A DNA stretch of 61,918 nt from Campylobacterales bacterium (GCA_016938735.1 JAFGUB010000061.1:1-61918); one strand, 5' to 3'. Numbered from the stretch's first letter, positions 36,995-41,285 are shown. Notes: a model not told the origin generated them from the sequence alone. A program made the numbers and translations.

Positions 36995-37312
36995 CTATTG
37001 AAATCTCATACACAAAATGTCAATCACTTGACGCTTGAGATGATCCCCAAGCGTGGCCATTTTTTTGGTGAGTCTTCGCTTGGAGATCGTGCGCACCTGA
37101 TGACACAATATGATGGCCTCTTGATCCTCAAGTATCATGAGTAGCTCATTGGGATAGATTTTTCGTCCCTCTTTTCGCGACGTGATCGGTATGATCGTGA
37201 TGATCTCCATCTGATTTTCGATATCGTTGGAGACAACCAAAACCGGACGATGACCCGACTGCTCCCTGCCGACACTCGGATTTACATCCGCCCAATAGAT
37301 ATCAAAGTGCAC
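36995..37312 (-). CDS. mazF: MazF/PemK-family endoribonuclease toxin
   Basis: A 105-residue toxin: FDIYWADVNPSVGREQSGHRPVLVVS holds the conserved (G/R)xxxGxxRP(V/A)LVVS core, then IITIIPITS and CHQVRTISKRRL with the catalytic threonine and arginine region. It looks intact. It follows its antitoxin with an 11-base overlap on the minus strand, at the left edge of the AT-rich island. Confidence 0.9.
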   Translation of the reverse strand: MHFDIYWADVNPSVGREQSGHRPVLVVSNDIENQMEIITIIPITSRKEGRKIYPNELLMILEDQEAIILCHQVRTISKRRLTKKMATLGDHLKRQVIDILCMRFQ

Positions 37313-37550
37313 TCAGTTCACCGTCTACAAAGGCAAAATCGTCCGTGACACCGCTAATGTCGCTCTGCACCAAAGGGTCACGGCTCATCTTCTCCAGCTC
37401 TTTTTTGTACCGCTCTCTCTTGATCGCTTCAACGGTCGTGCGCAGAGAGTTGGAGACCAAATCGGAGAAATTTTTGAACTGTTCGAATGCGCCCTCTTTT
37501 TGCAGCTCCAAAAAAAGATGCTCGTCGATGGTGATGGTTTTTCGTAACAT
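37302..37550 (-). CDS. Antitoxin partner of MazF (ribbon-helix-helix type)
   Basis: An 82-residue protein starting MLRKTITIDEHLFLELQKEG, a ribbon-helix-helix DNA-binding fold, with an acidic C-terminus (SDISGVTDDFAFVDGEL) that would wrap the toxin. I choose the ATG at 37550 rather than the longer frame to 37583. The inverted repeat at 37597 is its likely autoregulatory operator. Confidence 0.8.
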   Translation of the reverse strand: MLRKTITIDEHLFLELQKEGAFEQFKNFSDLVSNSLRTTVEAIKRERYKKELEKMSRDPLVQSDISGVTDDFAFVDGELSAL

Positions 37551-37596
37551 TCCAGCGCCTTTGTATGAGAATAGATCATACATTTTATCATACTAT

Positions 37597-37613
37597 GTGT
37601 CGCATCGCGACAC
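37597..37613. promoter_or_regulatory. Operator-like palindrome of the mazEF operon
   Basis: GTGTCGC-ATC-GCGACAC, a perfect 7-bp inverted repeat, lies 47 bases upstream of the antitoxin ATG next to TATGATAAAA on the minus strand. It is the expected place for binding by an antitoxin ribbon-helix-helix dimer. Confidence 0.6.
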
Positions 37614-37775
37614 TCTACCAATACAAAAGAACTTCATCAAGCTTCCATAACCTTGACATCTTCTATCTCTAAACCCTGCGTATAGATAGGAAGCATGTGT
37701 TGACTCAATGGTTAGATTGAAAAAGGTGGTTTTTGATCCGTAACCAAATTTCAGTCGATTCTTAGTGCAGCTTCA

Positions 37776-37901
37776 TTATAGTTGTTGAATTCCACAAACA
37801 AAGTCTCTTTCATCGTTATTTTGCAGCAACGTATCGTACGCAAAAATGTCTGCTAATGGGCTCTCTTGGATGGATTCAATGTCAAAATCTATGCACGCAA
37901 G
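37776..37901 (-). pseudogene. Possible C-terminal gene fragment in the 37.6-37.9 kb gap
   Basis: The 343-base gap between the antitoxin and the repeat protein contains a 41-codon minus-strand frame without a start codon: ...CIDFDIESIQESPLADIF and LLQNNDERDFVCGIQQL, then TAA. It reads like the end of a real acidic protein, but the family is unknown. The rest of the gap shows nothing apart from the promoter region of the repeat protein. Confidence 0.3.
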
Positions 37902-37926
37902 TTAGATAACAAAACAAGGAATCAAT

Positions 37927-38247
37927 ATGGCAAACAAAATTGAGCTATCAAAACAATGGGTATGTGATGGCCACGTACTCAAACCAAAGAATAGTGCTAG
38001 CTTGAGCAATACGTGGGTTTTTGACGGCAAAGAGATAAAGCCTAAATCAGGAGCCAACTCTAGCAACACGTTCGTATGGAACGGAAAAGAGCTTAAACCT
38101 AAATCAGGAGCCAATTCCAACAACACATGGATTATTGAAGGCGGAAAAGTAAAGCCCAAAAGTGGAGCCAACTCAAACAATACATACGATTGTAGCGATG
38201 ATAGTATTCTCGTGATTGCAGGTCAAGTAATGCTAAAGCTCTGGTAG
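37927..38247 (+). CDS. Small protein of four 19-residue repeats, first gene of the island operon
   Basis: A 106-residue protein. After ten residues come four tandem 19-residue units (11-29, 30-48, 49-67, 68-86), such as WVFDGKEIKPKSGANSSNT and FVWNGKELKPKSGANSNNT. The pattern is aromatic, hydrophobic, x, D/N/E, G, three residues, KPKSGANSxNT. A 20-residue tail, DCSDDSILVIAGQVMLKLW, ends the protein. Units are 57 bp at DNA level, and three are nearly identical around CCTAAATCAGGAGCCAA, so copy number may vary. Each unit could form a beta-hairpin, giving a short beta-solenoid. AAGGA lies upstream. It is 11 bases from the KAP gene and probably co-transcribed. I know similar small repeat proteins of unknown function; a role as target sensor or regulator of the NTPase-nuclease pair is inference. 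Confidence 0.75.
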   Translation: MANKIELSKQWVCDGHVLKPKNSASLSNTWVFDGKEIKPKSGANSSNTFVWNGKELKPKSGANSNNTWIIEGGKVKPKSGANSNNTYDCSDDSILVIAGQVMLKLW

Positions 38248-38258
38248 GGTGTGTGATC

Positions 38259-39974
38259 ATGCACTATTTTGGCATTAGGGATCTTCCTATTGAAAGTATT
38301 GGTGATGAGTCGCTTGGATTAATACCCTACATTCAAAGCTTGTCAGATTTTGTTCTCGCTTGCGAAACACCTATGACCATCGCCATCCAAGGTGATTGGG
38401 GCAGTGGGAAAACAAGTGCAATGAATATGATTAGAGAAAAAATCTCATCGGAAGTGGTACCTATTTGGTTTAATACATGGCAATTCAGCCAATTCGAGAT
38501 GCAAAAAGAGCTCTCCATCTCTTTACTTTCATATTTTGTCGATGAGCTGGATGACAAAGAAGCAACTTTCAAGAAAAAAATAGGCGGACTGCTTAAAGGC
38601 CTCGGCAAAATGACCGCTGCCGTTATTGCGGAACAGACCGTAGGCGAGACGATGGCAGGAAAAATCGCCGACGCACAAAGCGAACCTGTCGATTCTGCAA
38701 AAGCGCTTAAAAATCTTAAATCTGAACTCCATAAAGCGGTTGAACAAAAACTCAAACTGGCAAATAAAGCACGGATTGTTGTCTTTATTGATGATCTGGA
38801 TAGACTTCAACCTGAAAAAGCCGTTGAGATGCTTGAGGTTATGAAGCTCTTTTTGGATCTACCTTTTTGTGTCTTTGTTCTTGCAGTTGATTATGGTGTC
38901 GTCATTAGAGGAGTGCGAAAAAAGTATGGAGATGAAAAGGGTAGAAGTTTTTTCGACAAAATAATTCAACTTCCATTTAACATGCCAGTAGCTCAATACA
39001 ACATTGAAAATTACTTTTCTGACTTGCTTAAAAAAACAAAAATTCAATTTTCTGACAAAGATGTACGACTTTATAGGGATTTAGCGGCATACTCTATCGG
39101 AATAAACCCTAGAGGACTCAAAAGGCTATTTAATCTTTTGTTACTGCTCAATATAACAGCCAAAAATCAAAATCTTCTTGAAAGTTCTGAAGAGGTAAAG
39201 GTATCTGAAAGACAAAAAGTTATCTTCGGTGTTCTGTGTCTGCAAAGCGGTTTTGAGGAAGCTTATAGATTTTTGTCAAGATCAAACATTTCTGAAGAAC
39301 TTTTACGAAGCATGGCAGACAGAGATAAGCTCAAAAATAGTTTAGAGTTTGAATCTTTGAGAAAAGATATAAAAGATGATGAAAAAATAGAAAAGTTAGC
39401 AGAGTTTATAGAAGTTTTTATAGAAGCTCTTCAAACCGAATATGATGGCGAAGACAAAATATCAAACAAAGAGATTAAAAATCTTTTAGAAATATTGAGA
39501 TTTTCATCTATCACAAGCCTAGATGAGAGTAGGGCAAGTAATGGCTTAAATTACAATGAAAGAAAAGAAAATAGGGAAGCTCTAAAACATTTTTCTGAAG
39601 AACTAAATAAGAAATATAAACAAAAATTAAAACTGCTAAAAGAGCAATTCTATGTTTATCAACCAAGAGATGAAAGCTACGCTTCTTTGTATCTTCACAT
39701 TCAATCTAATGGCCTCTTCTCAATAAACTTCTCTTTTGATCAAAACGGATTTGCTATTTATGAATCTGATAGTGGCTCAAAAGTAAACAGCAGCGCTGGA
39801 ATTCAATTTTTTAATTCGGCGTTTTCCGGTCTTGGATTTGATAAAATCGACTACGAAAATGAAATAGCTTTTTCTGAGAAATTTGAAGAGTCACACCCTT
39901 TTAATAAAAAGCTTGAAAGATTCAAAAGCAAGACTGCAGAAACGCTTGAGAAAGTGTTTGAAAGGCTATCATGA
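38259..39974 (+). CDS. KAP-family P-loop NTPase
   Basis: A 571-residue KAP NTPase (from ATG 38259; a GTG at 38253 is also possible). Walker A is IQGDWGSGKTSAMNMI (residues 43-58, Lys51), followed by the KAP signature VPIWFNTWQFSQFEMQ. Walker B with double aspartate is IVVFIDDLDRLQPEKAVEML (about residue 172). FFDKIIQLPFNMP and SIGINPRGLKRLFN are further KAP motifs. The C-terminal 250 residues are charged and helical with a beta-rich end. No transmembrane pair interrupts the domain, so it is soluble. KAP NTPases include PifA of plasmid F, which aborts T7 infection. Base composition is very AT-rich (13 G/C in 39361-39420). Its stop overlaps the nuclease start (ATGA). Confidence 0.88.
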   Translation: MHYFGIRDLPIESIGDESLGLIPYIQSLSDFVLACETPMTIAIQGDWGSGKTSAMNMIREKISSEVVPIWFNTWQFSQFEMQKELSISLLSYFVDELDDKEATFKKKIGGLLKGLGKMTAAVIAEQTVGETMAGKIADAQSEPVDSAKALKNLKSELHKAVEQKLKLANKARIVVFIDDLDRLQPEKAVEMLEVMKLFLDLPFCVFVLAVDYGVVIRGVRKKYGDEKGRSFFDKIIQLPFNMPVAQYNIENYFSDLLKKTKIQFSDKDVRLYRDLAAYSIGINPRGLKRLFNLLLLLNITAKNQNLLESSEEVKVSERQKVIFGVLCLQSGFEEAYRFLSRSNISEELLRSMADRDKLKNSLEFESLRKDIKDDEKIEKLAEFIEVFIEALQTEYDGEDKISNKEIKNLLEILRFSSITSLDESRASNGLNYNERKENREALKHFSEELNKKYKQKLKLLKEQFYVYQPRDESYASLYLHIQSNGLFSINFSFDQNGFAIYESDSGSKVNSSAGIQFFNSAFSGLGFDKIDYENEIAFSEKFEESHPFNKKLERFKSKTAETLEKVFERLS

Positions 39975-41155
39975 TGAAAAATAGTGAATTTGCCACTTTC
40001 TTTATGGCTGCAAAATCAGCGGTTCTGGCAACAGAACAGAATAGTGCGTCTAGCGGTGGTGGCTTTAATATTTTTTCTATTTTAGGAGTCGAGCACAAAG
40101 AGGTGACCACGCACTCTGCACTTTTAAGAGAATTGCTGGATCCAAAAGGCTCACATGCTCAAGGTGATAAGTTTTTAATTGAGTTTCTGAAAGTGATTGA
40201 TTTTTTAGGATTTGACACAAAAAACACAAGTGTACACGCTGAATTGAATGCTACCGAAGGGCTTGGCAGGATGGATGTCGTTTTGGATGAGCCCAACAAT
40301 CTTATTGTTATTGAGAATAAAATATATGCGCCAGATCAAAAAAACCAACTTGAGCGATACGAAAAATATGCAAAAATGCAAAACAAAAATCACAGGATTT
40401 TTTATCTAACGCTAGATGGAAAAGAAGCTGAAGAGCAAGAGAGTGAGGGGGTTGATTACCATGCGATCTCTTACAAATCTGAAATTTTGGAGTGGATTGA
40501 GAACTGCCTACAATTGGCGATTCCGCCTAGAATTTCTTATGTGCTTCATCAGTATAAAGATACGATTAGACAACTCACCAACCAAGCAAGCGCGGAGATA
40601 GAGATGGAAATTGAGAAAATACTCGACACCGTAGACAACATTAAAATAGCCAATGCAATTTATCAAAGTTTCCCAAGCATTCTTACAAGAAAAGAGTTGT
40701 TATTCTGGAAAAGTGTAGCAAAAGAGCTAGAAAATATTACTCACGAATTCGGCTATAAAGTAGCCACAATTGATGAAGATACTCTGCTACATGACCTTCG
40801 AAATAGACCTAAGCAGGGCGTAAATTGTATTTGGATTAAAACAGAAACCTATGCTGATAATAAATATATTTGGGTTTGTATTGGATTTGACGGATATAGT
40901 CCAAAACTCTATCTTTCAGTTTCACCCTATGATGAAATTGGTGAAAACCATCTTGGTGATGATGATCATAAATACATCGCAAGCAGACTGGCTTTTAAAG
41001 ATCGCAAATATTATAAATACATCTGCAAAAATTATGATATGTACAACTACGGAATCATAAAACTCTTGGAAAATCAAAATGATCATATATTCTTAGAAGA
41101 TATACAAGTAGAACTTGAGAATTTTTTTGATCTTCTGGCAAAAACGAAATTTTAA
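39971..41155 (+). CDS. PD-(D/E)XK nuclease-family protein (PDDEXK_4-like)
   Basis: A 394-residue protein. The nuclease core is at about residues 35-135: FNIFSILGVEHKEVTTHSALL, GSHAQGDKFLIEFL, GRMDVVLDE (Asp102), IVIENKIYAP (Glu115-x-Lys117) and QLERYEKY. That is the D...ExK site followed by the Q-x3-Y of PDDEXK_4 proteins. The C-terminal 250 residues, with many aromatic residues, are probably a target-binding part. Coupled to the KAP gene by a 4-base overlap, so a KAP NTPase-nuclease complex is likely. AT-rich like its partner. Followed by about 110 bases without a gene, up to the terminator of the convergent efflux operon. Confidence 0.82.
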   Translation: MMKNSEFATFFMAAKSAVLATEQNSASSGGGFNIFSILGVEHKEVTTHSALLRELLDPKGSHAQGDKFLIEFLKVIDFLGFDTKNTSVHAELNATEGLGRMDVVLDEPNNLIVIENKIYAPDQKNQLERYEKYAKMQNKNHRIFYLTLDGKEAEEQESEGVDYHAISYKSEILEWIENCLQLAIPPRISYVLHQYKDTIRQLTNQASAEIEMEIEKILDTVDNIKIANAIYQSFPSILTRKELLFWKSVAKELENITHEFGYKVATIDEDTLLHDLRNRPKQGVNCIWIKTETYADNKYIWVCIGFDGYSPKLYLSVSPYDEIGENHLGDDDHKYIASRLAFKDRKYYKYICKNYDMYNYGIIKLLENQNDHIFLEDIQVELENFFDLLAKTKF

Positions 41156-41267
41156 AAACCGACATAATGCAAATTTTAGATATGCTAAGAGCTCATCTTG
41201 TCCGTGCTTGAGCCCTGTCTACCCTAGTAAGTAAAAAGAGTTTAGTAGTGGAGCAAATTAACAAAAA

Positions 41268-41285
41268 GGGCTTACATGTAAGCCC
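41268..41285 (-). terminator. Rho-independent terminator of the efflux operon, built on the dispersed palindrome
   Basis: GGGCTTACATGTAAGCCC is a perfect 18-bp palindrome starting directly after the RND stop codon. It can fold as a 7-bp stem with a CATG loop, and on the minus strand it is followed by TTTTTG. The core is an exact TTACATGTAA (41272-41281). It also separates the efflux operon from the convergent nuclease gene. Confidence 0.75.

Follow-up and report, generated by a model that had tools for sequence, protein, structure and literature searches.

A laterally acquired three-gene operon was identified at positions 37927 to 41155 of the window, which is the whole 61,918-nucleotide stretch of Campylobacterales bacterium DNA (GCA_016938735.1 JAFGUB010000061.1:1-61918) analyzed in this study. 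The three genes, all on the + strand, encode a small repeat protein (REP), a soluble KAP-family NTPase and a PDDEXK_4 nuclease. Across this KAP subfamily, both the nuclease and the small protein encoded first can be exchanged. The locus is probably a modular conflict system, most likely anti-phage, in which the KAP NTPase would license the nuclease, and REP would set the trigger or act as an inhibitor. The operon is a candidate for a new, modular form of KAP-based system rather than for a category of its own.

The genes are AT-rich and tightly ordered, as first described by a sequence-only reading of this DNA. The REP gene (37927 to 38247) encodes 106 aa and is followed by the KAP gene (38253 to 39974), which encodes 573 aa when counted from a GTG start and 571 aa when counted from the ATG at 38259. 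The 11-base gap previously assigned between the two genes is correct for the ATG; the mechanical ORF starts at the GTG at 38253. The same choice affects the Walker A lysine, which is Lys51 as first numbered when counted from the ATG, and residue 53 when counted from the GTG. The nuclease gene (39971 to 41155) encodes 394 aa and is joined to the KAP gene by an ATGA overlap, which was seen at 39971-39974.

The operon is located within an AT-rich, foreign-looking block (37584 to 41270) with a GC content of 32-41% versus about 55% outside. Synteny of the downstream efflux operon with a congener begins only at 41270, which is 115 bp past the nuclease. The three-gene operon is missing in this congener, and other genes occupy the place of the block. 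DNA-level repeats or an element end were sought around the operon, and none was convincing. A toxin gene (36995 to 37312, - strand) and the gene of a presumed 93-aa antitoxin (37302 to 37583, - strand) are neighbors of the operon and had been described as a MazEF pair. The toxin is indeed of the MazF/PemK type (PF02452, 2e-24) and may or may not belong to the system. Its partner did not match any MazE family, and its profile matches give it a weak likeness to ribbon-helix-helix antitoxins. The left edge of the block (37584-37926), a stretch of about 340 bases that separates REP from the antitoxin, contains no convincing ORF, and a broken reverse-frame reading there suggests decayed sequence.

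The KAP protein matched the Pfam family KAP_NTPase (PF07693) at 5e-40, with 138 bits against a cut-off of 20. The FNTWQF signature and the IDDLDRL motif of the Walker B region (38787 to 38807, + strand) are both present as proposed; they are conserved in 22 sequences and are invariant or nearly so among the relatives. Within the Walker A motif GDWGSGKTS (38391 to 38417, + strand), G50, G52, K53, T54 and S55 are invariant in GTG numbering. Many KAP members carry transmembrane helices inserted in the P-loop domain, a feature that is not required by the Pfam model. These inserted helices are absent from the window protein, which places it in the soluble branch. No transmembrane segment was found by hydropathy scan, the most hydrophobic 19-mer being the core strand FVLAVDY, and the initial description of a soluble protein was thus correct. 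Among solved structures, the single weak match of KAP was a 170-residue chain deposited as OR280.

The nuclease matched PDDEXK_4 (PF14281) at 4e-32, with 112 bits against a cut-off of 22.3, and the PADLOC model PDC-S26 at 1e-78, nearly end to end. The catalytic residues first read as Asp102 and Glu115-x-Lys117 are intact (D102 ... E115-N-K117; 40274 to 40321, + strand). D102, E115, K117 and Q126 are invariant over nine sequences.

KAP NTPases include several anti-phage proteins, as the earlier reading had stated for PifA. PifA excludes T7 (PMC8594841). QatA, also a KAP ATPase, binds DNA in both single- and double-stranded form, forms a 7- or 8-mer and influences which phages are defended against (PMC13279940). 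Escape from Tmn has been mapped to a DNA-modification gene of the phage (PMC11846954). The window KAP matched the PADLOC models of PifA, QatA and the candidate PDC-S20 over the NTPase region. However, each of these systems differs from the window operon. QatABCD also combines a KAP NTPase with a nuclease (QatD, TatD-type) in a defense operon, but QatB, QatC (QueC) and the TatD nuclease are absent here, and the QatA equivalog model gave 107 bits, below its cut-off of 600. PifA of the F plasmid shares the KAP domain (1e-33, residues 10-278), but it is a single-gene exclusion protein, and the match is limited to the NTPase part (profile positions 8-290 of 720). Tmn is an anti-phage KAP-family NTPase with two transmembrane domains (PMC11846954), whereas the window KAP has none and has an operonic nuclease. 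PDC-S20 (KAP, 5e-27) and PDC-S26 are single-gene candidates by model name, whereas here the matching proteins are joined with REP. In agreement with the original claim, the libraries and papers searched yielded no named system of this composition.

By analogy with these systems, KAP is proposed as an ATP-dependent switch and the nuclease as a DNA-cleaving effector. KAP would form an ATP-dependent oligomer and recognize a phage-associated state, which might be foreign or modified DNA or a phage protein. The activated KAP would then license the PD-(D/E)XK nuclease, and DNA would be cut. REP, as a small, rotationally repetitive beta protein, would be the functional equivalent of the DUF6150 and 5-fold beta-flower-like proteins found elsewhere. 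It would bind the KAP-nuclease assembly, and either set its trigger or keep it off until infection.

REP contains four copies of a 19-residue unit, W-x-x-[DNE]-G-K-x-[LIV]-K-P-K-S-G-A-N-S-x-N-T, and a hydrophobic C-terminal segment. The number of self-matches at shift 19 was 41, and the maximum in 2000 shuffles was 18 over all shifts from 5 to 59. This indicates that the periodicity of the four KPKSGANS repeats noticed at the outset is far above chance. No convincing family was found for REP in Pfam, NCBIfam or PHROG. An AF2 model built from seven sequences, with the plasmid-derived row omitted from the alignment, reached a pLDDT of 69 and a pTM of 0.57; the model from the single sequence was poor. 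The seven-sequence model, of medium confidence, predicts eight main strands arranged as four beta-hairpins, 9-residue long loops and a C-terminal helix at residues 94-105. Beta-flowers are 4-, 5- or 6-fold rings of short hairpins. They have been described as shallow barrels of 8, 10 or 12 strands with nine- versus four-residue loops and a C-terminal hydrophobic helix (PMC10584680). The four hairpins, the long loops and the C-terminal helix of the REP model are reminiscent of this description, and REP may resemble beta-flowers in architecture, without membership in their families. REP matched neither the beta-flower families PF21784, PF21785 and PF21786 (E up to 1; up to 10 for the REP relatives) nor the DUF6150 profile (PF19647). 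The beta-flower hairpin-tip motif [DNEQ]XXG is absent from REP, where the alignment gives [DNE]G at the tip. Profile-profile comparison by hhalign showed no similarity between REP and DUF6150 and gave no support for homology of REP to beta-flower-like proteins. Mutual sequence homology among REP, DUF6150 and beta-flower-like proteins was not detectable. Foldseek with the REP model returned nothing significant, and among solved structures REP, DUF6150 and the nuclease had no credible match. A 7_1-knotted fold is not proposed for DUF6150: the knotted Ureaplasma protein exists (PDB 8IWA, PMC13352647), but the DUF6150 profile failed to reach it.

REP and DUF6150 also occupy a second type of operon that has no KAP gene. 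In two Campylobacter-like genomes, REP is followed by a restriction-like protein and an Ion_trans channel (L071 8238-10026, L075 8454-10176). In two other genomes, DUF6150 is followed by an ion channel and a restriction-like protein (L136 7334-9129, L137 6714-8575). The channels and the restriction-like proteins remain homologous between the two sets (best restriction-like pairs, E 3e-10 to 7e-14). The restriction-like proteins have the D..E-x-K motif in common with PD-(D/E)XK enzymes, and hhalign did not support a relation to PDDEXK_4 beyond this motif. REP and DUF6150 replace each other in homologous operons and therefore look functionally interchangeable, though without a detectable sequence relation. 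On a prophage-like viral contig (L157, 6007-7056), REP stands directly before DUF6946 (1.7e-76), a Pfam family assigned to a nuclease clan (PMC10584680). This REP gene is flanked by lysis-type genes and an integrase, as identified by reading, and the site is likely a cargo or defense slot. A Salinibacter plasmid record with five matching places (L038) encodes a REP-like protein (1477-1938) that has a larger number of repeats, seems to bear a signal peptide and adjoins an ion transporter.

These neighborhoods bear on the role of REP, which the sequence-only reading had stated to be a sensor or target adaptor. That role is one option, and an effector inhibitor fits the neighborhoods about as well. 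In the inhibitor version, REP would be an antitoxin-like protein that holds the nuclease or the KAP-nuclease assembly inactive, and would be lost or displaced on infection. REP is the small first gene of the operon, and it is swapped for unrelated small proteins, as is often so for antitoxins. The common neighbor of REP in the window, in the L071 and L075 operons and on the prophage-like contig is a PD-(D/E)XK protein at the family or motif level, which also favors inhibition. However, the beta-flower-like proteins of Firmicutes adjoin KAP without a recognized nuclease, and the signal peptides apparent in some REP and DUF6150 members would be odd for a cytosolic antitoxin. A dedicated antitoxin-like role is somewhat unlikely, and REP is best read as an exchangeable sensor, adaptor or inhibitor.

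The recurrence of the operon was examined by a KAP scan of 84,980 genomes, which gave 39 loci; further searches added more. The three-gene neighborhood had been proposed for search in other genomes. The exact trio was not found: REP is present in 5 other genomes of 298 from Campylobacterota and on one plasmid, never with KAP. The REP relatives come from five Campylobacter-like genomes, the Salinibacter plasmid and the prophage-like viral contig, and KAP accompanies none of them. Single-sequence queries with REP and the nuclease found nothing in viral contigs, alignment queries found the one prophage-like REP locus and two close KAP loci, and REP was not found in phage records. The architecture was found with its first gene replaced. 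In a Sulfurovum-related genome (G300; L114, contig C98), a DUF6150 protein is encoded 4 bp before KAP. The KAP gene is split between contigs: contig C95 starts with its remainder, at the very point where the first piece breaks off (query residues 1-220 and 220-770). A PDDEXK_4 nuclease with an intact D..E-x-K motif follows KAP by 9 bp (L174). We infer, across this contig split, that the genome has the order and strand of the window with DUF6150 in the place of REP. In the same locus (L174, 2431-4105), the first PDDEXK_4 gene is followed, with a 14-base overlap, by a gene whose 226-aa product belongs to no known family; another PDDEXK_4-like protein, which is divergent (323 aa, 8.5e-05), comes next.

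The KAP-PDDEXK_4 pair was also found in a Sulfurovum genome (L108), where the genes overlap, and in Lachnospiraceae (L149), with a 4-bp gap. At L103, the nuclease is upstream of KAP with one gene between. Together with the order in the Sulfurovum-related genome, the recurring pair supports the original view of the three genes as one unit. KAP and the nuclease could instead be independent single-gene defenses, PDC-S20-like and PDC-S26-like, lying in one island with REP as a passenger. PADLOC names both as single-gene candidates. Across the phylum, PDDEXK_4 and KAP homologues are mostly non-adjacent, so each may be able to act alone. This explanation is nevertheless unlikely: the two window genes share the ATGA overlap, Campylobacterota and Lachnospiraceae show the pair in one and the same order with an overlap or a gap of less than 10 bp, and the position directly upstream of KAP is again taken by a small repeat protein elsewhere.

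Module exchange is visible around KAP in 37 subfamily loci. A nuclease was found within 1.5 kb of KAP in 10 of the 37 (PDDEXK_4 in four, GmrSD in four, one of them weak, and HNH in two); these counts exclude the nuclease of the Sulfurovum-related genome, found later on a separate contig. A small beta-repeat protein was within the same distance in 10 of the 37 (beta-flower-like in five, DUF6150 in four and REP in one), the beta-flower-like matches being below the Pfam cut-off (best E 0.0028). Recognized partners were absent at 13 loci. The exchange occurs between close relatives: the KAPs of L087 and L108 are 69% identical, and their partners are GmrSD and PDDEXK_4, respectively. The KAPs of L108 and L114 are 91% identical over 220 residues, and DUF6150 is alongside L114 only. 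DUF6150 is rare (4/298 Campylobacterota genomes); in 16 KAP-bearing genomes, four of five DUF6150 genes are within 1.5 kb of KAP. The probability of this proximity by chance is about 1e-10 under uniform placement, a rough value, given the clustering of operons and the choice of the sixteen genomes for their KAP genes. The KAP subfamily is patchy in its occurrence (9/299, 2/175 and 2/179 genomes), and its loci keep company of the defense type, namely McrBC and WYL and, by reading, an AbiEii-like pair.

A regulatory ATPase made of KAP and REP, acting in stress or at the membrane, with the nuclease only incidental, is very improbable: many loci of the subfamily do lack a recognized nuclease, and some are flanked by ion channels, MORN or secreted proteins, but one of three nuclease types is near KAP in more than a quarter of the loci, and the distribution is patchy and foreign-looking. 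For the modular conflict system preferred here, we tentatively suggest that the REP repeats, DUF6150 and the 5-fold beta-flowers, unrelated families of very small beta proteins with internal symmetry, might constitute one functional class. They would be interchangeable trigger or inhibitor cartridges for the KAP-nuclease, KAP-GmrSD, nuclease-ion-channel and prophage nuclease cassettes of mobile defense operons. KAP NTPases recur in phage defense (PifA, QatA, Tmn), and the exchange seen here genetically separates the switch, the effector and the candidate trigger. DUF6150, beta-flower-like proteins and KPKSGANS repeats are tied to a single operonic slot, and their function thereby becomes testable. 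In such a mix-and-match operon, phage specificity might follow the small protein when it is swapped between operons.

Other genes also accompany this subfamily. Zinc-ribbon mini-proteins adjoin four KAP loci, and UDG-like proteins adjoin four. The zinc-ribbon protein is conserved, with a core of about 56-64 aa, and lies upstream or downstream of KAP (L087 183-377, L090 7801-7971, L108 11593-11787, L122 9727-9963, L174 4102-4368). The UDG-superfamily-like family, with a weak Pfam match, adjoins both KAP and REP genes (L085 7198-7989, L096 9752-10546, L100 2437-3192, L115 6605-7297, L123 6206-6955; L072 8934-9656, L074 10739-11461). A Sulfurimonas contig with DUF6150, an ion channel, KAP and GmrSD (L083 14547-17512, L181 39-4357) also has a KAP gene of another, distinct subfamily. 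An AbiEii-like toxin and its partner were identified there by reading, and the contig is an apparent defense island.
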